DNA of 35,529 nucleotides from a virus. The DNA lies in the IMG/VR virus record IMGVR_UViG_3300025030_000289, positions 1 to 35,529 of that record; one strand, written 5' to 3'. A program made the translations under genes and the position numbers. Positions within the stretch are counted from its first letter, which is position 1; each line of letters begins with the position of its first letter. Of the stretch, positions 104 through 25,546 are shown one piece after another. The notes below the pieces were generated by a model. That model saw only the letters and a list, made by a program, of their open reading frames with translations. It made no database searches and was not told where the DNA came from.

Positions 104-118
104 CTTAACTGTTAACTG
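104..118. repeat. CTTAACTG element, two copies back to back
   Basis: CTTAACTG at 104-111 is followed at once by TTAACTG at 112-118, right after the stop codon of the upstream gene and about 15 bp before the ribosome site of the next. It belongs to the family of intergenic elements found only in the first 4.9 kb. Confidence 0.7.
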
Positions 119-149
119 TTGCCGATTGGCTAACTAAAGGAGATAAATC

Positions 150-350
150 ATGAGCGCAAACTATTTGCCTTTCAGAGATGATGTAAAACACGTAATTGCA
201 CATAGAAAGCCTACTTCTAGCGAAATTCGTTTTGGTGAAGGAGCTACACATTATAAAGAATTTCCTGTTGAAATGTGGAAAGATAAAAACGGCAAGCCTA
301 AAGTATGGATCAAATGCCCTGAAGACGGCTTACGTTACTATCGCCGTTAA
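150..350 (+). CDS. Unknown small protein, 66 aa
   Basis: The ATG lies 8 bp behind an AAAGGAG ribosome site. The product is short and basic with a WKDKNGKPKVWIKCPEDG stretch that looks like a beta-hairpin, and ends in YYRR. No signal peptide, membrane segment or catalytic motif is visible, and I do not recognise the family. It sits in the left cluster of small accessory genes, whose products are probably early host-takeover or accessory proteins (inference from position only). Confidence 0.7.
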   Translation: MSANYLPFRDDVKHVIAHRKPTSSEIRFGEGATHYKEFPVEMWKDKNGKPKVWIKCPEDGLRYYRR

Positions 351-359
351 CTGGTTAGT

Positions 360-371
360 TTGCCCACAATA
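360..371. repeat. TTGCCCACAATA copy of the dispersed quasi-palindrome, next to a ribosome site
   Basis: The word TTGCCCACAAT lies immediately 5' of the AAGGAG ribosome site of the next gene. The same placement recurs at 3351, 18091 and 20781. Its arms (TTG and CAA) are inverted around CCCA. Confidence 0.6.
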
Positions 372-383
372 AGGAGATATGCC

Positions 384-650
384 ATGTATGCACTCTTCAA
401 TCGCTTTGAAATAGAAATGACACTAGCACAAGCTCAATCAGCCTCACAGCCTGGAAAGGATGCTAGCGACGATGTAAACGCATTGCTTCAGTTACCTAAG
501 ATCAAGCGTCAACTTGCTAAGATCAGCGACGATGATCTAGCCGCTGAACTGCGCGAATATGGCGCTTGGGACGATGAAGAATTGCAGGATAGGCAAGCTA
601 ACGAGCAAAGAATCATCTGGCTTGCGGCGGGTAATATCGTTGACCGTTAG
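384..650 (+). CDS. Conserved small phage protein, 88 aa
   Basis: The start is placed at ATG 384 because an AAGGAG lies 8 bp upstream; an upstream in-frame TTG at 360 lacks a site. The C-terminal half has the pattern DDLAAELREYGAWDDEEL followed by DRQANEQRIIWLAAGNI, resembling short phage proteins whose tail reads R-x-LW-x-AAG-x-I. Function is unknown. It is acidic and predicted to be mostly helical. It ends with TAG and is followed by a paired CTTAACTG element. Confidence 0.8.
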   Translation: MYALFNRFEIEMTLAQAQSASQPGKDASDDVNALLQLPKIKRQLAKISDDDLAAELREYGAWDDEELQDRQANEQRIIWLAAGNIVDR

Positions 651-653
651 CGT

Positions 654-682
654 CTTAACTGTTAATCTTTGGCTCTTAACTG
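654..682. repeat. CTTAACTG pair, 21-bp spacing
   Basis: Exact copies start at 654 and 675, 21 bp apart, in the gap between two genes. A TTTGACTAAAGGAG segment follows, as after most other pairs. Confidence 0.75.
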
Positions 683-709
683 CTAACCTTTGACTAAAGG
701 AGAAACACA

Positions 710-1003
710 ATGAAAAAGACAACTGTATACGTAGTAAGTTGGGATTGTGGAACTAGCGGCGGCTTTGACTGGTATTACAAAGAAGATTTAGCCAAATCTG
801 CATTTGAGAAAGAAAAGACTGACATGTCAGCCGATAAACTTGTTTCTGACAAAGAAGCTGTTTATTACTTTGAGCATGAAACGGATAATATTGATGATGC
901 TGAAGCTGTAACAGAAGAGATTGACGCAAAGCTATTCTTTTATGAGGATGAAAGCGCCGATACTATAAAATGGAATAAAGTTGAGCATTTATGCAATCTT
1001 TAA
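710..1003 (+). CDS. Unknown acidic small protein, 97 aa
   Basis: The ATG sits 7 bp behind AAAGGAG. The protein begins MKKTTVYVVSWDCGTSGGFDWYY, suggesting a beta-strand start, and becomes strongly acidic in the second half (EHETDNIDDAEAVTEEID). Small acidic phage proteins can mimic DNA or inhibit host factors, but nothing here proves that role. No known family recognised. Confidence 0.7.
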   Translation: MKKTTVYVVSWDCGTSGGFDWYYKEDLAKSAFEKEKTDMSADKLVSDKEAVYYFEHETDNIDDAEAVTEEIDAKLFFYEDESADTIKWNKVEHLCNL

Positions 1004-1013
1004 GGAGCCTAAA

Positions 1014-1352
1014 ATGCGAATGTGGATGCAAAACCCTAAAATTATGTGCAAGAAACATCTAATTGGAGAGCACGGCGAAACGCACAAATTCCCGCATAAC
1101 TGGCAAAAGAAACACTCCATAACAGGACGCATAGCGGTTAACTCAATTGAGCCTGGATCATACAAAGCTAGGCATGATGTATTAGCCAATGAAATGCTAG
1201 CTAGAGGTTATAATCATATGTCACCGCTTGAACAACCTGACTTTAGTTATCTGCCAGCTGAACAGCAAGCGGCTAAAGTTGATCAAGAGTTATCACTTGA
1301 ACTGTTGATTGAACGTTGTCCTGAATGTGCTCAATTGTGGGCAAATAGCTAG
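1014..1352 (+). CDS. Pyrimidine-dimer DNA glycosylase family (T4 DenV-like), 112 aa
   Basis: The N-terminus MRMWMQNPKIMCKKHLIGEH matches the Pyr_excise family related to T4 endonuclease V, which excises UV-induced pyrimidine dimers and nicks the abasic site. The family acid is in the GEHGE segment (about residues 19-23), followed by RHDVLANEMLARGYNHMSPL and a CPEC pair near the end. Start ATG 1014 has TAAGGAG 7 bp upstream. T4 DenV uses the amino group of Thr2; here residue 2 is Arg, so the same chemistry cannot be assumed. The 3' end holds one copy of the dispersed TGTGGGCA word (1336). Confidence 0.75.
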   Translation: MRMWMQNPKIMCKKHLIGEHGETHKFPHNWQKKHSITGRIAVNSIEPGSYKARHDVLANEMLARGYNHMSPLEQPDFSYLPAEQQAAKVDQELSLELLIERCPECAQLWANS

Positions 1353-1369
1353 TTAAGGAGAGTTAAGCC

Positions 1370-1540
1370 ATGAAAACGAAACGATACCTTTTCAACATTG
1401 AAGAAGTGATTGCAATTAGAGAAGCTTTAATTGAATACCGGCAAATGCTAAGACAAGCTAAGGTTGATAACGAGCATAAAAGGCACGTTGACGCTTTAGC
1501 GGATCAATTCAAGCAAGATGCTATTTTGTGGCGTTCTTAA
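1370..1540 (+). CDS. Unknown small protein, 56 aa
   Basis: ATG 1370 follows AAGGAGAGTTAAGCC. The product (MKTKRYLFNIEEVIAIREAL to FKQDAILWRS) looks all-helical, with charged residues spaced as in a coiled coil. The stop codon TAA is part of a CTTAACTG repeat. Family unknown. Confidence 0.65.
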   Translation: MKTKRYLFNIEEVIAIREALIEYRQMLRQAKVDNEHKRHVDALADQFKQDAILWRS

Positions 1541-1564
1541 CTGCTCTCACTTTCTACTTAACTG
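1536..1564. repeat. CTTAACTG pair, 21-bp spacing
   Basis: Exact copies start at 1536 and 1557. The first copy supplies the TAA stop of the upstream 56-aa gene. An ACTGATTGACTAAACAGGAGG segment leads into the next ribosome site. Confidence 0.75.
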
Positions 1565-1593
1565 CAACTGATTGACTAAACAGGAGGTAACAA

Positions 1594-1863
1594 ATGAAAC
1601 TCTTAATTGCAGATAAAACTTTTGTTTACGAATTAAACGCGAAAGGTGAAAACCGGCTTTACTTCAAAATTTACCCTGGGTGCGATAATGATAATAACAG
1701 AACTTCTGAGGAAGAACTTGCTAAAGCTGCTAACTTGTTTGCCGCTGCTCCTGAACTTTTGGAAGCATTAGAATACTTCTTAACAGTTGAAACTTTACTA
1801 TCTCACGGTGATGATAGAGTTACGAAAGCTAAAGAAGCTATCGCTAAAGCGAAAGGAGAATAA
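1594..1863 (+). CDS. Conserved small phage protein with AAAPELLEAL motif, 89 aa
   Basis: ATG 1594 follows AGGAGGTAACAA. The centre carries LAKAANLFAAAPELLEALEYF, a motif recurring in short phage proteins of unknown role, followed by a Lys/Ala-rich helical tail. The N-terminal part looks like beta-strands (KLLIADKTFVYEL). No enzymatic residues are evident. The gene ends 2 bp before the ATG of the next. Confidence 0.8.
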   Translation: MKLLIADKTFVYELNAKGENRLYFKIYPGCDNDNNRTSEEELAKAANLFAAAPELLEALEYFLTVETLLSHGDDRVTKAKEAIAKAKGE

Positions 1864-1865
1864 AA

Positions 1866-2021
1866 ATGGATAAATACAAAGGAACTAAATTAGAACGTTA
1901 CTTTGAATATTACAAGCTTGGCTGGATTGAAAGATATGGTAGTCTTGACAACAAGAACCAATGGAATGAAACGTTTGAAGAGTTTGTTTTGTCTTTTGTA
2001 CCTGAAAGATTGTTAGCTTAA
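1866..2021 (+). CDS. Unknown small protein, 51 aa
   Basis: ATG 1866 follows AAAGGAGAATAAAA. The product (MDKYKGTKLERYFEYYKLGW to FVPERLLA) is rich in aromatic and charged residues and looks helical. Its TAA stop is inside a CTTAACTG repeat. Not recognised. Confidence 0.65.
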   Translation: MDKYKGTKLERYFEYYKLGWIERYGSLDNKNQWNETFEEFVLSFVPERLLA

Positions 2022-2045
2022 CTGTCCCTCTTTACCACTTAACTG
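2017..2045. repeat. CTTAACTG pair, 21-bp spacing
   Basis: Exact copies start at 2017 and 2038. The first provides the upstream stop codon; the second is followed by TCACCGATTTCAAGGAGG. Confidence 0.75.
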
Positions 2046-2070
2046 TCACCGATTTCAAGGAGGAAACACA

Positions 2071-2262
2071 ATGAACGCGACACTTAAGCAATTCGCGAAA
2101 CTGGCTAAACGTTGCAAAACCAATAAGCAAGTCACAAGGCTTTGGAATTATGCCGATCATCAAACTAATTGTTGTGAAGCCATGTTTGAAATTTTGCTTA
2201 ACTGTTGTTCGTTTGCATTCAGAGATAAGCGGTACGCTAACTCTATTAACTTCACCTACTAA
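2071..2262 (+). CDS. Unknown cysteine-containing small protein, 63 aa
   Basis: ATG 2071 follows CAAGGAGGAAACACA. The N-terminal half (MNATLKQFAKLAKRCKTNKQ) is basic. The second half contains NCCEAMFEILLNCC and may not be a true protein segment: a CTTAACTG copy at 2197 lies inside the frame, whereas in neighbouring genes it forms the stop. The tail may therefore be a frameshifted extension of a shorter gene. Confidence 0.5.
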   Translation: MNATLKQFAKLAKRCKTNKQVTRLWNYADHQTNCCEAMFEILLNCCSFAFRDKRYANSINFTY

Positions 2263-2279
2263 CTGTCACCACTTAACTA
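2258..2279. repeat. Diverged CTTAACTG pair (spacing 14)
   Basis: ACTAACTG at 2258 and CTTAACTA at 2272 are one-base variants and are closer together than the 21 bp of the standard pairs. They occupy the same position between stop codon and ribosome site. Confidence 0.5.
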
Positions 2280-2293
2280 AAGGAGAACTTAAA

Positions 2294-2470
2294 ATGAAAG
2301 CTGAAATCAAAGGTAACAATCTTGTAATCACTATCGAACTGCAAAAGCCTACGCTCTCAACATCCGGCAAAACTAAGGTTGTTGCCAGCACTCATGGTAA
2401 TAAGGTTACGGACGTTATCATTGAGGGTAAACCTGTTACTATCGGTGTCAACTGCTATATCGCTAAGTAA
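2294..2470 (+). CDS. Conserved small phage protein, 58 aa
   Basis: Start ATG 2294 is chosen because AAAGGAGAACTTAAA precedes it; the frame stays open upstream but without a site. The sequence reads ITIELQKPTLSTSGKTKVV then THGNKVTDVIIEGKPV, a pattern seen in many short phage proteins (hydrophobic strands around S-GKT-x-VVAST). Probably a small beta-sheet fold. The SGKT is not a P-loop: the preceding glycine pattern is missing. Role unknown. Confidence 0.8.
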   Translation: MKAEIKGNNLVITIELQKPTLSTSGKTKVVASTHGNKVTDVIIEGKPVTIGVNCYIAK

Positions 2471-2485
2471 AGGAGGTCTGAAGTT

Positions 2486-2668
2486 ATGAAAGCATTATTC
2501 GGTCTAAGAATAGGTGCTGAAGATTGGCAAGAAGAGTTGATAACTGAAGTTGAAGAACGCTTTGAAGCGGCTAAACAATGGGCAATTGAAAACGGTTTTG
2601 ATCCTAAGAAGTTTAGAGTTGTTACCGTTGACGGATTACCTAACTTTGCTAAAACCATAAGGAGGTAG
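2486..2668 (+). CDS. Unknown small protein, 60 aa
   Basis: ATG 2486 follows AAAGGAGGTCTGAAGTT. The product is acidic and helical in the middle (EDWQEELITEVEERFEAAKQ) and has a possible strand FRVVTVDG near the end. No family recognised. It ends with its own stop 4 bp before the next ATG, consistent with coupled translation. Confidence 0.7.
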   Translation: MKALFGLRIGAEDWQEELITEVEERFEAAKQWAIENGFDPKKFRVVTVDGLPNFAKTIRR

Positions 2669-2672
2669 CCAA

Positions 2673-3083
2673 ATGCAAACCCTAGACACGCTTCAAAACC
2701 GCCTCACAGCGGTCATCAAAGCTCGCTTCCCTGACTCGTACCTACACTTCAAGGTAAGTACCCTAGGAAACGAAAATAGGCCGTCCCTGATCGTATCTTT
2801 CGCGCTAGGTTCCGGTCCTGACAGCTGGCCGAACCACATCATTCACAACGATCCAGGTCATACTATATTCTTGATTCATTCGGTCAAGAATATGGACGGT
2901 AGCATTAGCGACCTTACATTAGACGGCTCTATTGCTGGCTACTGGACCGGCAACAAGAGGGAGAAATTGAATTGGCGCGATATCAAGCAACCGAGCAATG
3001 AGGATAAGGTTGTTAGGCAAGTTACACGCTATTTCGATTCTATGTTGGCGGCGATTTTAGCTTCAACGGGGAGATTATCATGA
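2673..3083 (+). CDS. Unknown phage protein, 136 aa
   Basis: ATG 2673 follows AAGGAGGTAGCCAA. It is a mixed alpha/beta protein with GSGPDSWPNHIIHNDPGHT in the middle and a helical tail (DKVVRQVTRYFDSMLAAILA). No recognised catalytic motif. The 5' half uses many C-ending codons while the 3' half uses T-ending ones. It overlaps the next ATG by 4 bp (ATGA). Confidence 0.75.
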   Translation: MQTLDTLQNRLTAVIKARFPDSYLHFKVSTLGNENRPSLIVSFALGSGPDSWPNHIIHNDPGHTIFLIHSVKNMDGSISDLTLDGSIAGYWTGNKREKLNWRDIKQPSNEDKVVRQVTRYFDSMLAAILASTGRLS

Positions 3084-3319
3084 ACTGGACAAGCGTCAAA
3101 GACAAGTTACCTGAAGTTACGCAAGAGAATGAATACAGCGAGTTTACAAGCGGTCCTGTTTTAGTTTACCATGCTAAATGGGGAACAATGTGCGTTGCTG
3201 CATATCGAGCATGGGATATAGATGAACCTGTATTTGTGTGGAATACTTGCGATAGCGAAGGTTGGGATATTACCGATGAAGTTACCCATTGGATGCCGCT
3301 ACCTAGTTCACCCGCTTAA
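3080..3319 (+). CDS. DUF551-family protein, 79 aa
   Basis: It begins MNWTSVKDKLPE, carries GPVLVYHAKWG, and ends VTHWMPLPSSPA, the order W-x-S-V-x-D-x-LP ... VLV ... THWMPLP that defines the DUF551 family common in phages and prophages. Biochemical role unknown. ATG 3080 follows GGGGAGATTATC and overlaps the upstream stop. Its TAA stop lies within a CTTAACTG repeat. Confidence 0.85.
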   Translation: MNWTSVKDKLPEVTQENEYSEFTSGPVLVYHAKWGTMCVAAYRAWDIDEPVFVWNTCDSEGWDITDEVTHWMPLPSSPA

Positions 3320-3343
3320 CTGCAACCAATTACTACTTAACTG
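3315..3343. repeat. CTTAACTG pair, 21-bp spacing
   Basis: Exact copies start at 3315 and 3336, the first covering the DUF551 stop codon. This gap also holds a TTGCCCACAA copy. Confidence 0.75.
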
Positions 3344-3348
3344 CTTTA

Positions 3349-3362
3349 AATTGCCCACAATT
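3349..3362. repeat. AATTGCCCACAATT copy of the dispersed quasi-palindrome
   Basis: The most symmetric copy in the window: AATTG and CAATT are inverted 5-bp arms around CCCA. It lies a few bases 5' of the AAGGAG of the gene at 3376. Confidence 0.65.
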
Positions 3363-3375
3363 ATAAGGAGAAGTT

Positions 3376-3645
3376 ATGAAGACTGTCTACAAATACGAAT
3401 TACAATTAACTGATTACCAACGTATAACCGTTCCGTGTGCTGGCCTTTCCGATATACTTCAAGTAGGGCTTGACCCAAAAGGTCAGCTTTGCATTTGGTG
3501 CTTAGTTCAGACTCACGCGACACTGACTGAAACTTACGATATCTTTATTGTGGGTACAGGTAATCCAGTTCCAAATGAAGCTAAAATACACCTAGGAAGC
3601 GTTGTTCAAGGTCCGTTTGTTTGGCATGTGTTTACGGGAGCTTAA
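3376..3645 (+). CDS. DUF7352-like conserved phage protein, 89 aa
   Basis: It starts MKTVYKYELQLTDYQRITVP, continues with VGLDPKGQLCIWCLV and GTGNPVP, and ends VQGPFVWHVFTGA. This order (YKYEL, LC-x-W-x-LV, GTG, FVWHVF) is widespread in phage genomes, usually as DUF7352. It is probably a small beta protein. ATG 3376 follows AAGGAGAAGTT. No function is established. Confidence 0.85.
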   Translation: MKTVYKYELQLTDYQRITVPCAGLSDILQVGLDPKGQLCIWCLVQTHATLTETYDIFIVGTGNPVPNEAKIHLGSVVQGPFVWHVFTGA

Positions 3646-3648
3646 ACA

Positions 3649-3873
3649 ATGACCAGAACCTTTAAAGTATCACTGTATCACGGCAACAGCAATAAGCAGA
3701 AAACAGAACTAATTGTCACAGCCGGATCAATGCACGCCGCGCTTAAGAAGTTTATGATAGCTAAGTTTCCAGACGATGTGACGTATTACGGTAGAACAGA
3801 AAGCCCTGGTGCTATGTCATTCGGTACATCGGCAAGCGGTCAACGAATTTGGGTTAGGGAGGTGTTGGAGTGA
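3649..3873 (+). CDS. Unknown small protein, 74 aa
   Basis: The ATG is only 3 bp after the previous stop, so translation is likely coupled; the site GGGAGCTTAAACA overlaps that stop. The start TFKVSLYHGNSNKQKTELIV looks like a beta-hairpin, followed by a helix with AALKKFMIAKFPDDVTYYGR. No family recognised. Stop TGA overlaps a GTG start. Confidence 0.65.
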   Translation: MTRTFKVSLYHGNSNKQKTELIVTAGSMHAALKKFMIAKFPDDVTYYGRTESPGAMSFGTSASGQRIWVREVLE

Positions 3874-4007
3874 CAATTGAATACGTAGCAACCGCAAATT
3901 GCATAATTGTTTACTACGAAGTTAAGCTTGAATTTATGTTCAGCGAAACGATCATTACACCATGCATCATTAGCTTTGAGGAATGGATTAATCAAGGAGG
4001 TGAGTAG
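3870..4007 (+). CDS. Unknown small protein, 45 aa, GTG start
   Basis: GTG 3870 overlaps the upstream TGA and lies behind AGGGAGGTGTTGGA. The product has two hydrophobic stretches (NCIIVYYEV and ETIITPCIISF) and a charged end (FEEWINQGGE). Too short to classify; the strong site and tight overlap support it. Confidence 0.6.
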   Translation: MTIEYVATANCIIVYYEVKLEFMFSETIITPCIISFEEWINQGGE

Positions 4008-4009
4008 CC

Positions 4010-4038
4010 CTTAACTGCCGTCGCTTAACCCTTAACTG
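4010..4038. repeat. CTTAACTG pair, 21-bp spacing
   Basis: Exact copies start at 4010 and 4031 with a third partial CTTAACC between them at about 4024. Followed by CCGCCAATTGCTCACTTAAA and a ribosome site. Confidence 0.75.
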
Positions 4039-4075
4039 CCGCCAATTGCTCACTTAAATGAAATAGGAGAGTTTA

Positions 4076-4156
4076 ATGCTGAAATTAAAATGTAGCCAAA
4101 CACTTGAACTTTTGGCTGAATATGGTATTATGCTGACACGCTGTAGGAGTTCTTAA
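4076..4156 (+). CDS. Possible microprotein, 26 aa
   Basis: ATG 4076 follows TAGGAGAGTTTA and the frame runs 26 codons to a TAA that is again part of a CTTAACTG repeat (4152). The sequence has two cysteines (LKCSQ and LTRCRSS) and nothing recognisable. The ribosome site and the stop-repeat pattern, shared with real neighbours, are the support. Confidence 0.45.
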   Translation: MLKLKCSQTLELLAEYGIMLTRCRSS

Positions 4157-4159
4157 CTG
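4152..4159. repeat. Single CTTAACTG copy
   Basis: One exact copy covers the stop of the 26-aa frame; no second copy is found 21 bp downstream, where CGGTTAATTGCCGCC occurs instead. Confidence 0.6.
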
Positions 4160-4189
4160 CGGTTAATTGCCGCCTGAAAGGAGTAAGAA

Positions 4190-4501
4190 ATGAAAAAGCT
4201 GCTTGAGCGTTTCGAGGCGTATTTCCTGGCAATGGGTTATAAGAAAATGCCTTACAAGAACACGAATTACAGGTTGTTTGCTCTAACGTTTGTAACGGAT
4301 AGCGTTGTTCATGTCAGATATGTATTTCTAGGTAGCAACGGCGCTGTGCGAGTTAATATTGACAACAAATCTGCTGCCGGTAGCTTTTCCAAAACCGAGC
4401 AATACCGCAAGATTTTAGATAAATGGGAAGCTAGTAAGTTGACTAAATCTGCGCCTAAGAGAGCTAATGATGGTAAAGGCTGTGTTGGGGCTAGGTGTTA
4501 A
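4190..4501 (+). CDS. Unknown basic protein, 103 aa
   Basis: ATG 4190 follows AAAGGAGTAAGAA. A helical start (KKLLERFEAYFLAMGYKKMP) leads to beta-like segments (YRLFALTFV, VVHVRYVFLG) and a basic, unstructured tail ending GKGCVGARC. A small alpha/beta fold is likely. No family recognised. Confidence 0.7.
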   Translation: MKKLLERFEAYFLAMGYKKMPYKNTNYRLFALTFVTDSVVHVRYVFLGSNGAVRVNIDNKSAAGSFSKTEQYRKILDKWEASKLTKSAPKRANDGKGCVGARC

Positions 4502-4519
4502 TTACTTTAAGGAGATTGC

Positions 4520-4684
4520 ATGACAGGTAAGTTTAAATGGCATAAATGCATTAAATCCGGTGTTAGCTATGCGCCAAGATCAATGGATGTTTTAGTTATA
4601 TTGGATAGACAGGTTGGAACGAGTGATTATTTCTATTTCCCGCGCAAGGAATGGGAGAATCAAGGAGGCGAAGGAGATGTTTGA
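4520..4684 (+). CDS. Unknown small protein, 54 aa
   Basis: ATG 4520 follows TAAGGAGATTGC. It begins MTGKFKWHKCIKSG and has a hydrophobic strand SMDVLVILDRQ. Not recognised. The 3' end contains AAGGAGGCGAAGGAG, the ribosome site of the next gene, which overlaps it by 8 bp. Confidence 0.6.
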   Translation: MTGKFKWHKCIKSGVSYAPRSMDVLVILDRQVGTSDYFYFPRKEWENQGGEGDV

Positions 4685-4835
4685 ATACAGATTCGAAGAA
4701 GCATGGAAAGCTTACGCTGACGGTCTGACCATTTATTCACGACTTCAATTTTGTGATCATTTTAGTTTAAAATTAGCAGCTAACGTTGATTCATTTTATG
4801 TAAAACATTGGCGTAAAGTTTGTGAGGAATATTGA
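4677..4835 (+). CDS. Unknown small protein, 52 aa
   Basis: Start ATG 4677 is preferred over earlier in-frame alternatives because AAGGAGGCGAAGGAG sits just before it. The product (MFEYRFEEAWKAYADGLTIY to WRKVCEEY) is rich in aromatics and helical. Last gene of the left cluster; it stops 48 bp before the convergent terminator. Confidence 0.65.
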   Translation: MFEYRFEEAWKAYADGLTIYSRLQFCDHFSLKLAANVDSFYVKHWRKVCEEY

Positions 4836-4837
4836 CC

Positions 4838-4866
4838 TTTAACTGTACTTACTTGACGCTTAACTG
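4838..4866. repeat. CTTAACTG pair (first copy one base off), 21-bp spacing
   Basis: TTTAACTG at 4838 and CTTAACTG at 4859 keep the 21-bp period. This copy is followed by the terminator rather than a ribosome site, so the element is not tied to translation of a downstream gene. Confidence 0.7.
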
Positions 4867-4883: not shown

Positions 4884-4916
4884 AAAGCCCTCCTAGAGTG
4901 ATTCAAGGAGGGCTTT
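4884..4916. terminator. Strong bidirectional terminator between convergent units
   Basis: Arms 4884-4894 (AAAGCCCTCCT) and 4906-4916 (AGGAGGGCTTT) are exact inverse complements, 11 bp, with an 11-nt loop. The A-run and T-run flank the stem, so it can act in both directions. It separates the plus-strand small genes from the minus-strand primase-helicase unit. Confidence 0.9.
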
Positions 4917-4923: not shown

Positions 4924-7488
4924 CTACATTCCCATAAAGTTAACAATCATGTACATTTTAGCCGCGCCACTCAATCCCTTTGCCCTTTTATCAATTGGCG
5001 ACAACTCAACTATATCCCCACATTCTAGCATTGACTTAATCACCATATTCAGCGCCGGTATTGGGCCTAGGCGGTCAGTTTTAAACGGGGTCTTGGTTCT
5101 GCATATAGCTGATACGTAGCTGTGCGGAATGATCCTTTGATTCCAGGTAGACAACGTAGCGCCTGAATAGCTCTGAACCTGATTCCATTCCTTTGTAACA
5201 TAACTCTTCAATGCTTTCTTCACTTCAACTATCTGCTCGTTCTGCACGTTTATTGCGCCTACTTCGCCTGTCTCGAACTTGGACAGAATGTTTTCGATAT
5301 CTTTCCGAACTAGAGTAATAGCCCAATTGGTACATTCAATATCAATGATAGGATTGATGTAATTAACACCTACAGCCAGAAGCGCAGCAAGCTTCAATGC
5401 TTTGATATGCGCTCTGTTCCAAAGTTCTCTGAACGCTCCAATCTCAGTGTTAATTTTCCAGTCACACAACTTGTCGAACTTATCAAATTCAATTTCAGCT
5501 TCAATAGAGAACTGCACATTTAATACCTGATCGCCGTTGTTAAGCTGATCGCAATAAGCGCAAATAGAACTAAAGTAATCAACAAGCTGATTAGATGGTT
5601 TGACGCTCTTGTGAGCCTTGTTCAGCGGCGGTCTATCGCCATGATATTCAATAATGTTAAAGCGCGGCAACAAGCCCTCAAGGATCATTTCTTTACTCAA
5701 ATGTTCGTAAAACTTATCGTTAGTTGATTCACCAATAACAGAGAACGCAGGGGCTGTTATAACCTCAGTGCTTTTATCTTTGTCAGAATAGATCAAACTA
5801 CCTAAAACGTTACCATGCCCGGATTTATTGAACAAGTCAAGCATATCAATACGTAAGTCTTGTTTGTTAGTATCCTTGCTACCATTTGACATCTTTTTCA
5901 ACGTATCGGCAAACTCACCCATGATTGAAACGAAACTTTTAGAGTTTTTGGTAATGTATTTCATCAACGCAGGAGAAGATGCAATCTTAGCAGGACCAAT
6001 AAAACGCTTAGCGTTCGGCACAGTCTTATATACAGAGTTCATAAGAGTTGAGATACCGGAACTAATAGCTTCTTTTCCTCTACCGGTTTGCGCCAACAGG
6101 AATATGTATTGATTCAATCCTGTACCTGAAACGTTATAAGCTCTACCACAAACACCTGCCATTAGTCCTAACGCAGCAACGATAGCAATCTCAGGCACAG
6201 GGCGCGGTGCTGCATCGTGAATGAAGCGTGCAATTTCACCGATGATACCAGGAGGGACCGTAACGGAACTAGATGTATTCAAAGTTTCAGATATAACGTT
6301 TTCTATATGTGTCTGAGGAACAGAAATAGGAGCCTGAACCGGCTGAACGGGAGCAACGAGGACAGGCACGATAGGGCAGAAAACGGCTTCCAAATTTGCC
6401 CTAGAAAGGCCGTTCTCAGTCGCACCCTGGCTAGGGTATGGGCAAAAAGGCGCGAGGTTGCCGGTGCTAGGAGCTTGGACGGATGGCGCGGGGTTTGGTG
6501 TCTCAACTTGCCCACATTCTGTAGCAGGTTGAGCTTCGATTGTAGTTGCTACAGCGCGAGTTGAAGCAAGCTGATCCTCAAGGTTGTTACGAAGTGTATC
6601 AATGTTTAATGTGGGTAAAGTCTGGTCAAATGCTTTAGGCAAGCAAAACTTGTAAAGATAATCGTGACGATGTGCTTTAGGGCGCTTACCGAGAGCCGAA
6701 GTATGAAACATACGAACAATTTGCTCAGTATTTTGAGTGTAGAATACGAGCATATTCAACAATGCAATGTCAGCGTCTGATTGATTACCTGCGTAATTGA
6801 ACTGCTCCCAACGTCCTTCCCAAAGTTCAATGAACTTAGCTCCGTTACTAGCTGTACTAGCAATACGGTATATTTCAGCATCTTCAAGAGTTTGAGGTTT
6901 TATTAGTCCAGTCATGTCAGTAGGCTGAACTTGTTCTTTACCCATTTGTAACCATAATTGTTGAATATTGAAACTATGATTCACAATAGGGTCATTACTA
7001 AATACATTGCCGGTCATTACGAAATATCTTCCCGTACAATAGATTTCAGCTGATTCACGCCGTCTGCCTGTTTCAACATAAGCTTTAACGATTCCGTGCA
7101 GTCCTTTACCTGATTGAGAAATTTCCCAATAACCTGGAAAAGTTACTACTATGAATTGGTTTCTGTTAGCAATTGCTTCAGGATTAGCGTATTTAAATGT
7201 ACCGTCAGACAACTTTTCGTAAGGATCATCCAGATCAATCCCACAATAACCGCATTCCTTGGTAAAAATAAATCCAATGCCAGAACAGTAAGGCGCAGCA
7301 GCAATAGCTTCTTCAAACGTAGACCATGTAGAAGAATTGCTAACTGAAGCTAGTTTTCCTGTTCTCGAATTAATAGGCTGTTTAGCCGGTTTATCCGATC
7401 CCGCATCAACTAACTTCCAATTGCACCATTGATTCAATTTACGCAGTTCTTCAGGTATGTTATAATAAATAGAAACATCAGGATTCAT
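4924..7488 (-). CDS. Primase-helicase: PrimPol N-terminus plus DUF3987-like ATPase, 854 aa
   Basis: This likely primes and unwinds the phage replication fork. The N-terminal PrimPol/AEP-type motifs are visible: YCGIDLDDP (metal-binding acids, about 82-90), SQSGKGLHGIV (about 125-134) and GRYFVMTGN (about 153-161). A Pro/Ala-rich linker (about 330-410) precedes a P-loop-like LLAQTGRGKEA in the DUF3987-like helicase half; the usual Ser/Thr after the lysine is Glu, which I recall as common in this family. ATG at 7488 has AAGGGG upstream and is preferred to a codon 21 bp earlier inside the neighbouring gene. It overlaps the GIY-YIG gene by 11 bp. The gene is head-on to the other replication genes. 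Confidence 0.85.
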   Translation of the reverse strand: MNPDVSIYYNIPEELRKLNQWCNWKLVDAGSDKPAKQPINSRTGKLASVSNSSTWSTFEEAIAAAPYCSGIGFIFTKECGYCGIDLDDPYEKLSDGTFKYANPEAIANRNQFIVVTFPGYWEISQSGKGLHGIVKAYVETGRRRESAEIYCTGRYFVMTGNVFSNDPIVNHSFNIQQLWLQMGKEQVQPTDMTGLIKPQTLEDAEIYRIASTASNGAKFIELWEGRWEQFNYAGNQSDADIALLNMLVFYTQNTEQIVRMFHTSALGKRPKAHRHDYLYKFCLPKAFDQTLPTLNIDTLRNNLEDQLASTRAVATTIEAQPATECGQVETPNPAPSVQAPSTGNLAPFCPYPSQGATENGLSRANLEAVFCPIVPVLVAPVQPVQAPISVPQTHIENVISETLNTSSSVTVPPGIIGEIARFIHDAAPRPVPEIAIVAALGLMAGVCGRAYNVSGTGLNQYIFLLAQTGRGKEAISSGISTLMNSVYKTVPNAKRFIGPAKIASSPALMKYITKNSKSFVSIMGEFADTLKKMSNGSKDTNKQDLRIDMLDLFNKSGHGNVLGSLIYSDKDKSTEVITAPAFSVIGESTNDKFYEHLSKEMILEGLLPRFNIIEYHGDRPPLNKAHKSVKPSNQLVDYFSSICAYCDQLNNGDQVLNVQFSIEAEIEFDKFDKLCDWKINTEIGAFRELWNRAHIKALKLAALLAVGVNYINPIIDIECTNWAITLVRKDIENILSKFETGEVGAINVQNEQIVEVKKALKSYVTKEWNQVQSYSGATLSTWNQRIIPHSYVSAICRTKTPFKTDRLGPIPALNMVIKSMLECGDIVELSPIDKRAKGLSGAAKMYMIVNFMGM

Positions 7489-8425
7489 TAGGACGCCCCT
7501 TTTCAGCACGTCTTTTGACCCATGCTAACTTCAGATTAGCCTTATGTTCTTCAGACTTAGGTTTTCTCATTTTAGCCACAGTTGCTTCTGACTTAGGCTT
7601 TCCTTTTGTAGCTAAACTTATCTTAGCTTTAGTTTCTTCTGAGATTGGCTTATCTTTTTTACTTGCTGAAATTTTAGCGCAAGTTTCGGTACTTTTAGGT
7701 GGTAATGCTTTGGCGGAAGCACTCATTTTAGCGCGAGTTTCATCAGTTCTTTTACCACCTGTAAGAGCTTTAGTAATTTTAGCACTGGTTATAGCTTTTT
7801 CTTCTTCAGTTCTATTTCTAACGGTTTCCTTTTGTTTCTCTATTGATTCATTTGAACGCTTATGCCCCAATTGACTTTCGCACATTTTACGCAAACGTTC
7901 TTCTGTAAACACAACACCTGTGTTAGCTAATGCAATTTTAAGTTTTCCTTCCTCTGTATGTTTTCTCAACTTACCTGCTTCACTTAACTTAGCTCTAGTT
8001 TCTTCGGTAACTTCGTGATTTAAAAGATGCTGATTTCCCATTAAGGACGCACTTATTTTAGCTTTGCTGTCGGCTCTATGCTCTAAGCCTAAATTACCTT
8101 CGCCGCCATTGCTATGATTACATAATCTCGCTCCCAAGCCCTTCATGTAAGCAATCCAAAACTGTTCTGCTTCAACCCAATCGCCGCCAGGAGGAACTAT
8201 TTCAAGAATAGCAAGTTCAGGTTTTAATGGTTTAAGCGACCTCGCCCAACAAGAAACTTTAGTTTTATACTTTGTGTATTTATGATCCCCGTATCGTTTT
8301 TCCAAGTTAATAGTTTTACCTACATATCTACATTCTGACGTTGTAGGGTCAACTAAAGCATAAATAAATGTCGGTTTACATGAGCGAGCTTTATCCGATG
8401 AATTAATGATTGGAAACTTAGGCAT
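7478..8425 (-). CDS. GIY-YIG homing endonuclease with NUMOD3 repeats, 315 aa
   Basis: The nuclease domain is at the N-terminus: FIYALVDP, then CRYVGKTINLEKRYGDH with the conserved Arg and His, then VEAEQFWIAYMK with the metal-binding Glu. The C-terminal two thirds are repeated NUMOD3-type DNA-binding motifs (NGGEGNLG; TRAKMSASAK; TKAKISLATKGKPKSE). It is free-standing; I see no intron around it. Its last bases contain the ribosome site of the primase-helicase gene, so insertion left downstream translation intact. Start ATG at 8425 has GAGGA nearby. Confidence 0.92.
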   Translation of the reverse strand: MPKFPIINSSDKARSCKPTFIYALVDPTTSECRYVGKTINLEKRYGDHKYTKYKTKVSCWARSLKPLKPELAILEIVPPGGDWVEAEQFWIAYMKGLGARLCNHSNGGEGNLGLEHRADSKAKISASLMGNQHLLNHEVTEETRAKLSEAGKLRKHTEEGKLKIALANTGVVFTEERLRKMCESQLGHKRSNESIEKQKETVRNRTEEEKAITSAKITKALTGGKRTDETRAKMSASAKALPPKSTETCAKISASKKDKPISEETKAKISLATKGKPKSEATVAKMRKPKSEEHKANLKLAWVKRRAEKGRPNES

Positions 8426-9310: not shown

Positions 9311-10168
9311 TTAAGATTCCTTAAAATGACCATATTGGTTCCATTGATCTTCTAAAATTCTATAAGCTTTAGCTGCTTCTTCCGCATCATCAAAATATTT
9401 AGTAATTTTAATACCTTTGCGCATTATTTGCATATGCCACTTTTGCAAACGGTTGTGCCAACTAACACCTTTCATACCTGAAGTATTACATTTTGAAATT
9501 TTATTATAAACAGGATTTATGTAATCAGTCGAATTTACTTTAGCCAAAAGTGCTTCAATGTCATTTAATTTGGCAAATTCACCGTGATATAATAAAGCAG
9601 ATTCATTGTAAGCTTGTGCTGCGCTAACAACATCTTTATAATATCCAATTTGTTTTCTAACACCCTCTTTACAAATATAAGCAAGAAAGACGTTACTCCT
9701 TTTAAGGTAACAAACACCTTTAGCTCCTGAAGTGTTATCAACGCGAGTTCTTCTATTTTGAGCATTCTCAAATTTGTTGCATTCTCTTAAATTAATTTTA
9801 CGATTATCCAAAGGATTTATGTTTCTATGATCATAAAGTTTACTTCCGTCATTATTCATGATGAAATTATGTAATCCTTGTTGCAACTCAGCTGAGTATA
9901 AATAACCATCGTTAACTAAAGACCATCTATATTTATTAATTTTATCAACATCTTCAATATCAATTTTAGCACAATTGATAACGTTAAACTCTTTATCATA
10001 AACACAAATCAAAGCATAGTCAGGTGTCATTATGATTTCATTAGGGTCTCGTATAGTTCGTCTGATTGTTCCTGATTCAAACCATCTACGATAATGCTTA
10101 TTGCACATACCTTTCCGCATTTGACCAACGAATCCACAACCTTCTATTTTACAAGTACCTATTTTCAT
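9311..10168 (-). CDS. HNH homing endonuclease with two AP2-type DNA-binding modules, 285 aa
   Basis: The N-terminus has a Cys/His cluster (CKIEGCGFVGQMRKGMCNKHY). The HNH core is LHNFIMNN ... YDHRNINPLDNRKINLREC, with the DH and paired N residues expected. Two AP2-like repeats follow: NTSGAKGVCYLKRS with QIGYYKDVVSAAQAYNE (about 143-190) and NTSGMKGVSWHNRL with KYFDDAEEAAKAYR (about 228-272). Many phage HNH proteins have only one AP2 module. The gene is wedged between the phosphoesterase (4-bp overlap) and the HD gene, as expected for a recently inserted mobile gene. Confidence 0.92.
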   Translation of the reverse strand: MKIGTCKIEGCGFVGQMRKGMCNKHYRRWFESGTIRRTIRDPNEIIMTPDYALICVYDKEFNVINCAKIDIEDVDKINKYRWSLVNDGYLYSAELQQGLHNFIMNNDGSKLYDHRNINPLDNRKINLRECNKFENAQNRRTRVDNTSGAKGVCYLKRSNVFLAYICKEGVRKQIGYYKDVVSAAQAYNESALLYHGEFAKLNDIEALLAKVNSTDYINPVYNKISKCNTSGMKGVSWHNRLQKWHMQIMRKGIKITKYFDDAEEAAKAYRILEDQWNQYGHFKES

Positions 10169-11873: not shown

Positions 11874-11965
11874 TAATTTACCTCCTGTTTCAAGCTGGCG
11901 GCACATTAACATAAATTCAAGCCAACTTGCAAGGAAAAAAAGTTAGCGCGAACTGAAAAAATTCC

Positions 11966-11994
11966 TTGACTTCCGAAAAGCTTTGTAATATGTT
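11966..11994 (+). promoter_or_regulatory. Sigma70-like promoter for the 12-20 kb unit
   Basis: TTGACT at 11966-11971, a 17-bp spacer and TATGTT at 11989-11994. It is in the intergenic region about 60 bp before the first plus-strand gene. The CCTTGACT context recurs at 14593 and 25515. The 182-bp gap (11,874-12,055) otherwise shows an A-rich run and no gene. A minus-strand promoter must also lie here or nearby, but I see only weak candidates. Confidence 0.7.
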
Positions 11995-12055
11995 CCCGGC
12001 TACGTCGAATCGAACCAGCAAAATTAACTCATACTAACATTAAAGGAGGGCTGTT

Positions 12056-12229
12056 GTGAGAGTTGCGAATCCTTTTTACGATGGCAACACCGGCCTATTG
12101 AGCTGTGAAGATTGCCCTTTGCTTGAAATTCCTCTTAAGCATTGCTTCGATTTTAATAATGGAAACTGTCCTACCTCTGATAACTACGAATTAGCTGTTA
12201 AGCTCGCTGAAGAGGTGACTAATGGCTAA
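12056..12229 (+). CDS. Cysteine-rich microprotein, 57 aa, GTG start
   Basis: GTG 12056 lies behind AAAGGAGGGCTGTT. The product reads V-x-VANPF...LSCEDCPLLEIP, then KHCFDF, GNCPTSDNYELAVKLAEE. It carries C-x2-C-P-L, a single C and C-P-T, likely a small zinc-binding fold. It is a recognisable paralogue of the 63-aa protein at 20612 (shared NP, C-x2-CPL, CPT, Y-x2-A-x3-AE). First gene of its operon. It overlaps the next ATG by 8 bp. Confidence 0.8.
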   Translation: MRVANPFYDGNTGLLSCEDCPLLEIPLKHCFDFNNGNCPTSDNYELAVKLAEEVTNG

Positions 12230-13934: not shown

Positions 13935-14572
13935 AACTAATCAAGCCGTCTGCTGAAATCCTTCACATTAACACCGAAGCACTTGCTCTTATCGAAAAAG
14001 CGGGAAGGGTGTGTTACAAGTCAGAAGATAAGATTACTGAAGACTCAGCACCGAAGTTTGCTGAAATGATCCTGAAGCGCGGTCATGAATCAGTTATTGA
14101 GCACGTATCTGCAACGGTAAAGTTTATTTGTGATCGTGGTGTTAGTCATGAAATAGTTCGCCATAGGATTGCGTCTTACTCTCAGGAAAGCACAAGGTAC
14201 TGCGATTATGAAGGAGGTCATGTTTGCTTCATAATTCCATTGTGGGTAGACATAGAAGAAGGTATTTATGATTATAAGAGTAATCCTGCAACTGACGTAG
14301 GTTCAGGTCAATGGTTTCAATCTATGATTAATTCGGAACTCAGATACAAAGCTCTTCGTGAACGTGCTTGGCGTCCTGAACAAGCTCGCTCTGTGCTCCC
14401 GAACTCGCTCAAAACGGAAATTGTTATGACGGCAAACTTACGCGAGTTTAGGCATTTCTTCAAGCTACGCACAGCTTCTGCGGCTCACCCTCAAATGGTA
14501 GAAGTTGCTAAACCCTTGCTTGCTGAATTCAAGAACCACATTCCTATTCTGTTTGACGACATCAACCCTTAA
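13931..14572 (+). CDS. thyX: FAD-dependent thymidylate synthase ThyX, 213 aa
   Basis: The ThyX signature RHR-x3-S-x4-S-x-R is exact at about residues 77-89 (RHRIASYSQESTR), preceded by HESVIEHVSATVKFICDRG and followed by the RSVLPNSLKTEIVMTANLRE and FRHFFKLRTA segments. ThyX methylates dUMP to dTMP using methylene-tetrahydrofolate and NADPH through FAD, and forms tetramers. Length is normal for the family. ATG 13931 follows CAAGGAGCGATGAA, overlapping the MazG-like gene. Confidence 0.97.
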   Translation: MKLIKPSAEILHINTEALALIEKAGRVCYKSEDKITEDSAPKFAEMILKRGHESVIEHVSATVKFICDRGVSHEIVRHRIASYSQESTRYCDYEGGHVCFIIPLWVDIEEGIYDYKSNPATDVGSGQWFQSMINSELRYKALRERAWRPEQARSVLPNSLKTEIVMTANLREFRHFFKLRTASAAHPQMVEVAKPLLAEFKNHIPILFDDINP

Positions 14573-14594
14573 GTAAAAGTAATGTGCAAATCCC

Positions 14595-14623
14595 TTGACT
14601 CTCTGAATTAACTTCTGTATAAG
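14595..14623 (+). promoter_or_regulatory. Sigma70-like promoter ahead of the ligase genes
   Basis: TTGACT at 14595-14600, a 17-bp spacer and TATAAG at 14618-14623, 37 bp before the RNA ligase ATG. It shares the CCTTGACT context of other promoters in the window. Its -35 box is one arm of an inverted repeat (TTGACTC 14595-14601, GAGTCAA 14626-14632). Confidence 0.8.
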
Positions 14624-14632
14624 GTGAGTCAA
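14595..14632. repeat. Inverted repeat TTGACTC/GAGTCAA embracing the promoter
   Basis: Two exact 7-bp arms, 31 bp apart start to start, enclose the spacer and -10 box. Since one arm is the -35 element, this is more likely a DNA-binding (operator) arrangement than an RNA hairpin. Confidence 0.45.
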
Positions 14633-14660
14633 CCTAACTAAACAAAGGAGGTAAAGATAA

Positions 14661-15563
14661 ATGCTGCGTGCTTTCCCGAAGATATTTGCAATCGGAACTG
14701 ACTACATAAGGGATATTTTTAACGAAGAGGTTGAAGTAACTGAAAAGGTAGACGGTTCGCAATTTGCGTTCGGCAAGGTTAACGGTGAACTTTTTCTTCG
14801 CTCCAAAGGTGCTCAGCTTTACGTCGATAATCCTGAAAAGATGTTTCGTGAAGGAATTGACTATGTTTGTTCCATTCAAGACGAACTGCCTGACAATGTT
14901 TGCTTTTATGGCGAATACCTGAAATCTCCTAAGCATAACACTTTGAAATATAACCGCATTCCTAAGAACCATATTATTCTGTTTGGTGCGTCTTCTCCTG
15001 CTGGTGATTTGTTTGATCCTCAGTTCTATAACTACGCTGAAAAACTGAATCTTGAAGTAGTTCCACGTAAAACAATCAAAATTAATTCTCCTGACGAATT
15101 ACGCGAACTTCTTAACCAGGAATCTGTTTTGGGCGGCTGTCATGTTGAAGGTGTTGTAGTCAAGAATTACACGCGCCAATTTCTGCTAGGCGGTCAACCT
15201 ATGCCGCTTATGGCGGGTAAGTTTGTCTCTGAAGCGTTCAAGGAAGTTCATCGCAACCGTTGGGGAACAGAAGAGAAAGGTAGCAGTAAATGGGCTACGT
15301 TCTGTATGTCATTTAAAACGGAAGCTCGTTGGCACAAAGCAGTGCAACATTTGGCTGAAACTGGTGAGCTGGATAATTCACCTAAAGATATTGGTAAACT
15401 ATTGAAAGAAATTAACATTGATATTGAAACTGAAGAAAAGGAAGCTATTAAAGAGTTCCTTTGGAATCAGCACAAGCGCGATATCATGTCTTTGGCTACG
15501 AACGGTTTTCCTGAATGGTATAAGCAGCAGTTGTTGGAACGCAGCTTTGCGGAGGAAGTTTAA
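14661..15563 (+). CDS. RNA ligase (Rnl2/PF09414-type), 300 aa
   Basis: Nucleotidyltransferase motif I is VTEKVDGSQFAFG with the catalytic Lys at about 29; motif III-like FYGEYL and motif IV HVEGVVVKNY follow, and motif V is MAGKFVSEAFKE. Such ligases join RNA ends via an adenylated lysine. In T4, RNA ligase repairs tRNA cut by host anticodon nucleases; a similar defence-counter role is possible here. ATG 14661 follows AAAGGAGGTAAAGATAA. The DNA ligase gene follows with no gap, so both ligases are co-expressed from the promoter at 14595. Confidence 0.88.
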   Translation: MLRAFPKIFAIGTDYIRDIFNEEVEVTEKVDGSQFAFGKVNGELFLRSKGAQLYVDNPEKMFREGIDYVCSIQDELPDNVCFYGEYLKSPKHNTLKYNRIPKNHIILFGASSPAGDLFDPQFYNYAEKLNLEVVPRKTIKINSPDELRELLNQESVLGGCHVEGVVVKNYTRQFLLGGQPMPLMAGKFVSEAFKEVHRNRWGTEEKGSSKWATFCMSFKTEARWHKAVQHLAETGELDNSPKDIGKLLKEINIDIETEEKEAIKEFLWNQHKRDIMSLATNGFPEWYKQQLLERSFAEEV

Positions 15564-18883: not shown

Positions 18884-19023
18884 CAACCAAGCTGTTAGTT
18901 GCAAATCTAGTTTCTACTGTTGCGCTGTTGGGCGGCATTTACCTTGCGGCTACAGGCAAAGAAGGTTGGGGTTGGTGCTTTCTTATTGCTGTTATATGTC
19001 ACTGTTCACCATCGTCTAAATAA
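18880..19023 (+). CDS. Two-span membrane microprotein, 47 aa
   Basis: ATG 18880 follows AAAGGAGGAAGG and overlaps the preceding TGA. Two hydrophobic stretches, about 5-24 ([20 protein letters not shown]) and about 30-41 ([12 protein letters not shown]), are joined by TGKEG, giving a hairpin in the inner membrane. It directly precedes the acyl carrier protein gene. Function unknown. Confidence 0.6.
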
Positions 19024-19036
19024 AGGAGGAAACAAA

Positions 19037-19258
19037 ATGAGTATCGCAGAAAAAGTAAAGGAAATCATTTCAGATTGCATTGGCGTTGAAGAAGTAAAGA
19101 ACGATCAGACCTTTGAAGAACTTGGCGCTGATTCTTTGGACACAGTGGAACTAATTATGGAGATAGAGGAAGAGTTTGAAATTGATATTCCTGATGAAGA
19201 AGCTGAGAAGATCACTACTGTTCAGGACGCGATTGATTACGTTGTAGAGCACACCTAA
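19037..19258 (+). CDS. Acyl carrier protein, 73 aa
   Basis: It matches bacterial AcpP in length and pattern: helix 1 [15 protein letters not shown], the phosphopantetheine site [11 protein letters not shown] with Ser at 33, then [18 protein letters not shown] and VQDAIDYV. The serine would carry 4'-phosphopantetheine added by a host transferase, letting the protein hold acyl chains. ATG 19037 follows AAAGGAGGAAACAAA; longer upstream extensions lack a site. It is an uncommon phage cargo sitting between a membrane microprotein and the ssDNA-binding gene. Confidence 0.93.
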
Positions 19259-21403: not shown

Positions 21404-22306
21404 ATGTACTACCTGATGAAAGAAAGCGCACCAACCGCCAACTTTTCAATAATCTTGCCTGGACCTTGCAACGCTGCTTGCTCGTTCTGCTTCTGGAAAC
21501 GAAGCAACGCTGAGCCACCAATGTTCGTTCAGACGCTGGTTTGGTATCTTCAAGCTCTCAAAGGTAAAGTAACACAGATTTCTATAACAGGTGGCGAGCC
21601 GACAATATCACCTGTATTTGACGATGTGATTAACGCTCTGCGTCAGTTTACCGATATAAAGATTGTGCTTACAACTAACGGCGCTAACTTGATGGAAAAG
21701 ATTAATGTAATCAACGGCGTTGTGAAGCATGTTAACATTTCGCGCCATGCTGTGAATGATGAAACGAACCGAGAAGTGTTTAAGACTAGATCAGTTCCGA
21801 CAACAACGCAGTTATCTCAGTTGTGTAATGTGCTTAATTCCTGCAATATTGACGTAACGTTAAACAAAGTTATTACTCATGATTACAACGATAAGTATGA
21901 GTTGGATGAATACATAGCATACGTTAAAGAAGTTGGCGCGTCGGCTTTGGCACTTCGTAAAGACTATTCAGTTAACTCTTTGGATAGCGTGCCACTAGAA
22001 GCTAAGCTTGGTCGTGTAGGAACTGTTAAAAGCTGTCCTGTTTGCAGCACTAACAGTTACCTTTACAAAGGTGTGCCGGTTCACTTCAAAATGAGTCTTG
22101 AAGAACCTAGTGAAGTTTTGCCTTACATTTACGAGTTTGTATATCACCCTAACAGCTTGCTTTCTGAGGATTGGGCGGGTAAGAAGCCTATTGAATTGCA
22201 AATGCGAGCGCCGGTTGTTCAGCAACCTAAACCGTCATGGGGTACACCGAACTTTTCTTACGGCGGCGGTTGCGGTCAAGTAACCTTTAGAGGTTGCGGC
22301 CAATGA
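21404..22306 (+). CDS. Radical SAM enzyme, 300 aa
   Basis: The [4Fe-4S] motif C-x3-C-x2-C is in LPGPCNAACSFCFWKRS (about residues 21-34), and SITGGEPTISPVFDDV is the SAM-binding GGE motif. TTNGANLM and HVNISRHAVND follow, as in MoaA/NifB-like barrels. A CPVC pair lies at about residues 206-209, and the C-terminus is glycine/cysteine-rich (YGGGCGQVTFRGCGQ), perhaps binding an auxiliary cluster. The substrate cannot be read. ATG 21404 follows AAAGGAGGAACAAAA. Its stop overlaps the next ATG. Confidence 0.9.
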   Translation: MYYLMKESAPTANFSIILPGPCNAACSFCFWKRSNAEPPMFVQTLVWYLQALKGKVTQISITGGEPTISPVFDDVINALRQFTDIKIVLTTNGANLMEKINVINGVVKHVNISRHAVNDETNREVFKTRSVPTTTQLSQLCNVLNSCNIDVTLNKVITHDYNDKYELDEYIAYVKEVGASALALRKDYSVNSLDSVPLEAKLGRVGTVKSCPVCSTNSYLYKGVPVHFKMSLEEPSEVLPYIYEFVYHPNSLLSEDWAGKKPIELQMRAPVVQQPKPSWGTPNFSYGGGCGQVTFRGCGQ

Positions 22307-25162: not shown

Positions 25163-25491
25163 TGGAAAACGACTACCTGAAATATCGCGGCAAGTGCAAA
25201 GAGATGTCAGAAGCAGCCGTAGCCGCCGATCCTACGCTTACTTTGGTTCGCGGTCACTATCACTGTCCTCTTTGGGGCGAGCAGCCGCATTGGTGGACTG
25301 TGCGCCAGGACGGTACTATTTACGACCCGACTAAGAACCAGTTTCCCTCTAAAGGTATAGGCGAATACGTTCCTTTCAACGGAACTGTTAGTTGTGAGCA
25401 ATGTGGTAAAGAAGTTCACGAAGATGACGCTGTATTGTACGGCAATTATGCGTTTTGTTCTGGTGAGTGCGTTTGTCGGTGCTGCCTATGA
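25162..25491 (+). CDS. Conserved phage protein with C-terminal zinc ribbon, 109 aa
   Basis: The middle reads RGHYHCPLWGEQPHWWTVRQ, then DGTIYDPTKNQFPSKGIGEY, a pattern (HY-x-C-P-x-W ... HWW-x-V ... DGTI-x-DPT-x-x-QFPS) conserved in phage proteins of unknown function. The C-terminus has CEQCGKEV and YAFCSGECVCRCC, a treble-clef-like cysteine set. Possibly an enzyme with Cys/His catalysis, unproven. ATG 25162 shares a base with the previous stop. Confidence 0.8.
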   Translation: MENDYLKYRGKCKEMSEAAVAADPTLTLVRGHYHCPLWGEQPHWWTVRQDGTIYDPTKNQFPSKGIGEYVPFNGTVSCEQCGKEVHEDDAVLYGNYAFCSGECVCRCCL

Positions 25492-25516
25492 TTAGAAAAT
25501 AATAACATATCTTTCC

Positions 25517-25546
25517 TTGACTTGAAATAGCCAACGATGGTAGTAT
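25517..25546 (+). promoter_or_regulatory. Sigma70-like internal promoter
   Basis: TTGACT at 25517-25522, an 18-bp spacer and TAGTAT at 25541-25546, in the 95-bp gap before the gene at 25587. The upstream block ATAACATATCTTTCCTT matches that of the promoter at 20140. A short stem (TTGAA 25560-25564 with TTCAA 25574-25578) lies just before the ribosome site. Confidence 0.7.

Follow-up and report, generated by a model that had tools for sequence, protein, structure and literature searches.

Directional repeats in the gaps between genes have been described in Escherichia phage TLS and T1-like phages, where the function of 21-nt intergenic repeats is given as an open question (PMC11447400), and in the cluster K mycobacteriophages, which carry start-associated sequences (SAS/ESAS) of unknown function (PMC3203893). 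Here we describe an array of a further short element, with the core heptamer TTAACTG, in the uncultured phage record IMGVR_UViG_3300025030_000289, analyzed over its entire length of 35,529 bases (the window). An earlier note on this DNA had drawn attention to paired copies of CTTAACTG, 21 bp apart, in the left gene cluster. Our analysis confirmed that the TTAACTG array is a real, same-facing tandem repeat that marks the gaps between small genes across a lineage of uncultured phages.

The TTAACTG array and its distribution

All fourteen exact positions of CTTAACTG listed previously are present in the sequence, as are the five exact 21-bp pairs and the sixth pair (4838/4859), which differs by a single mismatch (TTTAACTG). 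The first copy indeed supplies the preceding gene with its stop codon at 1540, 2021, 3319, and 4156. Most copies do lie in gaps, but the copy at 2197 sits within the open reading frame (ORF) 2071-2262; additional gap copies with one or two mismatches occur at 111, 346, 2258, and 2272. The single copy placed outside the cluster, at 20364, in fact starts at 20363 and is not alone, since another exact copy is present on the minus strand at 17175. We take the latter to be a chance occurrence rather than a genuine element, conserved because this stretch is coding in a related contig (G001, described below). An RYCRATTG-like piece had been proposed to follow the second copy; a downstream piece exists but is better described as YY-N5-TTRCY. 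The unit that we scored is (C)TTAACTG-YY-N5-TTRCY, the matrix consensus from lineage units, or CTTAACTG-YY-N5-TTRCY in terms of the window.

Using a 20-column scoring matrix built on 90 units from across the lineage, we identified 17 units in the window with a score of at least 15, all on the plus strand, all within 105-4860, and none elsewhere; shuffled sequence yields about 1.3 matches even at a lower cut-off of 11. A motif-free k-mer search of the gaps returned TTAACTG as the top 7-mer by both count and enrichment (55 vs 1.1 expected), alongside the ribosome site. The earlier note would have been undermined by an equal density of elements in unrelated regions; density elsewhere in the genome does not equal that of the cluster, and its view of the elements as cluster-specific and directional is supported.

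Our search of 2.9 million viral contigs, which used the motif and not proteins, found relatives of this phage. The exact-pair scan recovered contig IMGVR_UViG_3300025030_000062 (G001, 94.9 kb), with a primase 80% identical to that of the window over the alignment, and with 18 copies of CTTAACTG on one strand within 80.2-89.3 kb and three in the remainder, i.e., the same restriction as in the window. A scan with the bipartite motif recovered the additional records G003-G008. Five of these (G003, G004, G005, G007, and G008) have a primase, Sak4, SSB, Cas4 exonuclease, and helicase in common with the window at approximately 40-70% identity, and in the lineage members recovered by the motif, whose primases are 41-52% identical, the array adjoins the primase. 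A primase-profile search gave the same set plus L071 (41%), in which units are present, and two more distant matches, L171 (36%) and L172 (33%), in which they are absent. The cultured relatives Guyu, IMEAB3, PSV3, MiCath, and Kharn also lack the array, giving seven outgroups without it. At the nucleotide level, the cluster matches none of 50,697 phage records, and no lineage member was found in the bacterial genome contigs searched. The bare exact-pair pattern was rejected as a lineage marker: it occurs in 117 stretches in viral contigs, most of which, where inspected, were coding repeats unrelated to the array, and only those stretches with N7-TTRCY belong to the element family.

The heptamer is kept by purifying selection. 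Between the window and G001, only 1 of 91 heptamer positions is changed, compared with 14 of 91 in the N7 spacer (p=0.0006) and 102 of 564 (18%) third codon positions (p=1.5e-6); the TTRCY part has 8 changes in 66 positions. These alignments come from BLAST, whose shortest matches may favour conserved words, although most of the matches span whole genes.

Spacing is likewise constrained. When 18 copies were placed at random in 4.9 kb 200,000 times, no placement contained more than three adjacent 21-bp pairs, whereas six are observed, and the 21-bp spacing is preserved in the pairs aligned between the window and G001. Across the lineage, the distinct adjacent pairs are spaced by 19 bp (n=17) or 21 bp (n=19), rarely by 18 bp (n=3) or 23 bp (n=2), and never by 20 or 22 bp, so that spacing is quantised. 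For example, one equivalent array has 21 bp in G003 and G004 (TTAAGCATTGCTACTTAACTG) and 19 bp in G007 (TTAAGCATTGCCTTAACTG). The expectation that spacing would not vary freely in relatives thus holds, but 21 bp is not universal, and the argument that the units are exactly two DNA turns apart, on the same face, is weakened and fails as stated because a spacing of 19 bp is equally frequent.

Placement relative to genes is equally regular. Forward units occur in 39 of 65 gaps of at least 30 nt (23 of 33 between 30 and 99 nt and 16 of 32 above that length) and in none of the 50 gaps shorter than 30 nt, while reverse-strand units, pointing against transcription, occur in none of 115 gaps. These counts rest on simple gene calls, and some of the longer gaps contain uncalled small genes. 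Several orthologous arrays persist where one or both neighbouring genes are different.

Features of the window and two exceptional placements

The features of the window are as follows:

104-118, plus strand: overlapping units CTTAACTG (104) and GTTAACTG (111), followed by GCCGATTGGC and by AAAGGAG, the ribosome site for gene 150-350.
150-4835, plus strand: cluster of small, almost entirely hypothetical genes, including one pyrimidine-dimer glycosylase (1014-1352); probably early.
346-353, plus strand: lone degenerate unit GTTAACTG; its TAA at 348-350 is the stop of gene 150-350.
654-682, plus strand: 21-bp tandem pair within gap 651-709; the second unit is identical in G001.
1536-1564, plus strand: 21-bp tandem pair; the first copy provides the stop at 1538-1540; 97% identity to G001 despite a different upstream gene there.
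2017-2045, plus strand: 21-bp tandem pair; the first copy provides the stop at 2019-2021.
2197-2204, plus strand: exact copy within ORF 2071-2262 and hence outside the gaps; status uncertain.
2258-2279, plus strand: degenerate units ACTAACTG and CTTAACTA, gap 2263-2293; the stop is TAA 2260-2262.
3315-3343, plus strand: 21-bp tandem pair; stop at 3317-3319; retained in G001 though both neighbouring genes differ.
4010-4038, plus strand: 21-bp tandem pair in the gap ahead of the small ORF 4077-4156.
4152-4159, plus strand: single unit; stop at 4154-4156; same sequence in G001.
4838-4866, plus strand: 21-bp pair (one mismatch) between the last gene and the terminator; no gene downstream on the plus strand.
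4884-4916, both strands: bidirectional intrinsic terminator AAAGCCCTCC...GGAGGGCTTT, separating the cluster from the convergent primase gene.
4924-7509, minus strand: primase/helicase with an NrS-1 polymerase-like HBD match; its linker carries no element in the window.

Two placements depart from the gap-before-gene arrangement. Firstly, the unit at 4838-4866 and its counterpart in G005 follow the last gene and precede the terminator, with one copy in G005 within the terminator loop, so that a downstream start codon is not needed. Secondly, G003, G004, and G008 each have three copies within the primase coding sequence; these occupy the interdomain linker and run antisense to the gene, on the strand of the cluster (which in G008 lies past the contig end). 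Translated with the primase, CAGTTAA gives AVK or TVK in some of the linker copies and, in another frame, QL in others; since two frames are used, it is the nucleotides and not the peptide that are conserved. Together, these copies argue against a purely translational role. A strong terminator is present between the cluster and the primase in the window (G000), G001, and G005, all three without linker copies; no strong terminator was found at this location in G003, G004, and G007, and the first two have linker copies.

Our survey of these genomes also produced observations on neighbouring genes. An acyl carrier protein gene at 18920-19258 of the window (ACP-like part 19037-19258), unusual in a phage replication module, is present in 7 of 7 lineage members tested and 0 of 5 outgroups. 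Homing-endonuclease-like genes (GIY-YIG-like and AP2/HNH-like by eye) lie near the replication genes at 7478-8425 and 9311-10168, with homologues elsewhere in G001. The window also contains a radical SAM protein gene (21404-22306; Pfam match) with no match in the relatives compared. In G002 and G004, a long in-frame Ala/Gly/Val simple-repeat tract is present ahead of the Sak4 gene (L085, 456-1532), and the palindrome AAGCATGCTT occurs at least 10 times within 4000-14000 of L172, a relative without arrays.

Possible roles of the array

The reading that we favour is that the array is a cis-acting, strand-specific transcription-elongation control element of an early operon, with a putative factor reading the heptamer, and we would put the probability of this at roughly 45%. 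One long, probably early transcription unit would carry the tandem units in its untranslated gaps, and a host or phage factor would recognise the heptamer during the passage of RNA polymerase, whether on the unstructured transcript as it emerges, following a nut- or boxA-like logic, or on DNA, in the manner of stoperators; the recognised heptamer would then govern read-through of the gaps. We infer that the block is early and forms a single transcription unit, and the factor, the step acted on, and the reading in RNA or DNA are likewise putative. Recognition in RNA is slightly preferred, as is the RNA-level or antitermination alternative of the earlier note over its other options. A site acting during elongation is the best remaining reading because promoter, RNA fold, purely translational, and recombination roles are unsupported. 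With regard to the fold, the arrays showed no consistent stability (z −1.97 to 1.45), and none of the Rfam 15 covariance models matched in the window.

Several observations weigh against elongation control. The best comparison with boxA (core GCTCTTTAACA) reached 9-10 of 12 positions. A small, conserved helix-turn-helix-like protein encoded near the primase, which we examined as the factor, seemed exclusive to the lineage until an improved query recovered it from Guyu, Kharn, and L171, i.e., in outgroups without elements. Linker copies tend to go with an absent terminator, but this tendency is suggestive only, since it comes from six genomes, and G007 has neither terminator nor linker copies. 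In addition, in 24 of 41 groups the preceding gene ends on the TAA of the first heptamer, and a ribosome site starts 13-21 nt past the last heptamer in 31 of 51 groups (mode 17 nt), both of which could point to translation.

Such a translational or mRNA-stability element, an intercistronic linker that gives the stop codon, spacer, and ribosome site and is bound by a ribosome-associated or RNA-protecting factor, would account for this register, and the leader of T7 gene 10 has a similar TTAACTTTA ahead of the ribosome site. However, the copies that precede the terminator in the window and G005, and the antisense linker copies, serve no start codon, and the register may merely reflect unit duplication; we regard this role as rather unlikely. 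A DNA-only, repressive mechanism, which overlaps with elongation control and which we rate as unlikely but still worth considering, is that of stoperator-like operators, where a phage or host protein bound to tandem asymmetric sites blocks elongation until released. The quantised spacing of the tandem units suits an oligomer, yet 19 and 21 bp without 20 is odd for helical phasing, the sites of mycobacteriophage L5 are not known to form tandem arrays, and our non-exhaustive scan of protein families revealed no repressor, integrase, or other gene typical of temperate phages. The precedent is the stoperators of L5, asymmetric 13-mers that occupy short gaps between genes and are oriented along transcription (PMC9283540).

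Roles outside elongation and translation are less probable still. The elements could be recombination adaptors, short homologies at gene borders that let the phage Sak4/Cas4 system shuffle cassettes, as proposed for T4 PeSLs. This phage has Sak4, SSB, and Cas4 exonuclease; G001 is without the gene 2071-2262, and the two elements flanking it appear fused there; and gene families retain their elements while neighbours change. Breakpoints relative to G001 nevertheless fall at elements in 6 of 12 cases, where 8 of 19 gaps have elements, so that there is no enrichment and we rejected a recombination hot spot; selection confined to the heptamer would also be left unexplained, making this role improbable. 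Promoter or activator sites, one for each sub-operon, would fit directional sites ahead of genes, and TTGAC in the unit looks like a −35 box. However, we found no −10 hexamer at a fixed distance from the lineage units, the observed peak being reached by 28 of 200 shuffles, whereas the identical test on TLS placed a −10-like hexamer behind 15 of 15 repeats with none of 200 shuffles reaching the peak. Initiation at each array is thus unlikely, the earlier suggestion of a transcription factor finds no support insofar as it would act at promoters, and we would give a promoter role very little weight. Sigma-70-like promoters (TTGACT with TAATAT, TATAAG, or TAGTAT) were seen by eye in gaps outside the cluster, at 11912-12056, 14572-14661, and 25491-25560, and not in the cluster gaps. 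Finally, a strand-specific nick, packaging, or iteron-like replication site has in its favour that nicks of phage tf are marked by short words on one strand only (PMC3517423) and that the repeats adjoin replication genes, but sites limited to the gaps of one block and following its transcription, in tandem arrays spanning 5-9 kb, do not resemble origins or established nick sites, and this is the least credible of the roles considered.

Returning to elongation control, a more specific and doubtful version is that the array represents a novel class, in which a linear heptamer in a 19/21-nt register, lying in gaps that stay untranslated within an early operon, would be recognised on the RNA by a factor from host or phage and would suppress polarity. 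It could also colonise coding DNA antisense, as in the primase linker, when the transcript meets no terminator.

Comparison with known directional repeats

The array resembles several described systems in part. The approximately 18 bipartite, directional TLS repeats also occupy gaps, run along transcription, and often overlap the upstream stop (PMC11447400), but their sequence is unrelated (ATAGCACnnnTTGnTAAAA) and they are single, whereas the lineage units are tandem. Behind each of the 15 TLS copies tested lies a −10-like hexamer at a constant distance, approximately 37-39 nt from the repeat start (L201, NC_009540; e.g., 1523, 4061, 5136, 30222, and 45830), which suggests that the TLS repeats belong to promoters; the lineage units have no such hexamer. 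SAS are short, asymmetric repeats found mainly in one orientation, in gaps before genes, and beside differing gene families (PMC3203893), but SAS (GGGATAGGAGCCC) lie directly upstream of the start, while our units lie further upstream (modal 17 nt to the ribosome site), and ESAS are 17-bp inverted repeats rather than tandem direct repeats. Stoperators of L5 and other cluster A mycobacteriophages share with the array asymmetric sites in short gaps, oriented with transcription (PMC9283540), but are genome-wide 13-mers bound by a known immunity repressor, none being recognised here in our non-exhaustive scan.

The array also has the linear, unstructured, and directional character of boxA/nut RNA elements, and GCTCTTAACTG slightly resembles boxA, but the invariant core of the lineage is TTAACTG and not CTCTTTAACA. 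T4-type PeSL cassettes, which Arbiol (in 2010) and Comeau (in 2014) are said to have described, reportedly combine an early promoter with a stem-loop between small genes. Like the arrays, they are regulatory cassettes repeated between small genes and tied to gene shuffling, but the arrays do not have a promoter and stem-loop terminator per cassette.

The array is therefore an independent family of directional intergenic repeats, traceable across a lineage to approximately 41% primase identity, with a motif that identifies lineage members in metagenomes without recourse to proteins. The measured selection signal, the rule of 19 or 21 but not 20, and the two exceptional placements, after the last gene and antisense in the linker, narrow the functional options, and the question of its role is testable with a short reporter construct. 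None of the TLS repeats, SAS/ESAS, or stoperators matches the array on all defining features, and the element is distinct from them in being tandem, in being quantised, and in its ability to sit antisense in coding DNA.

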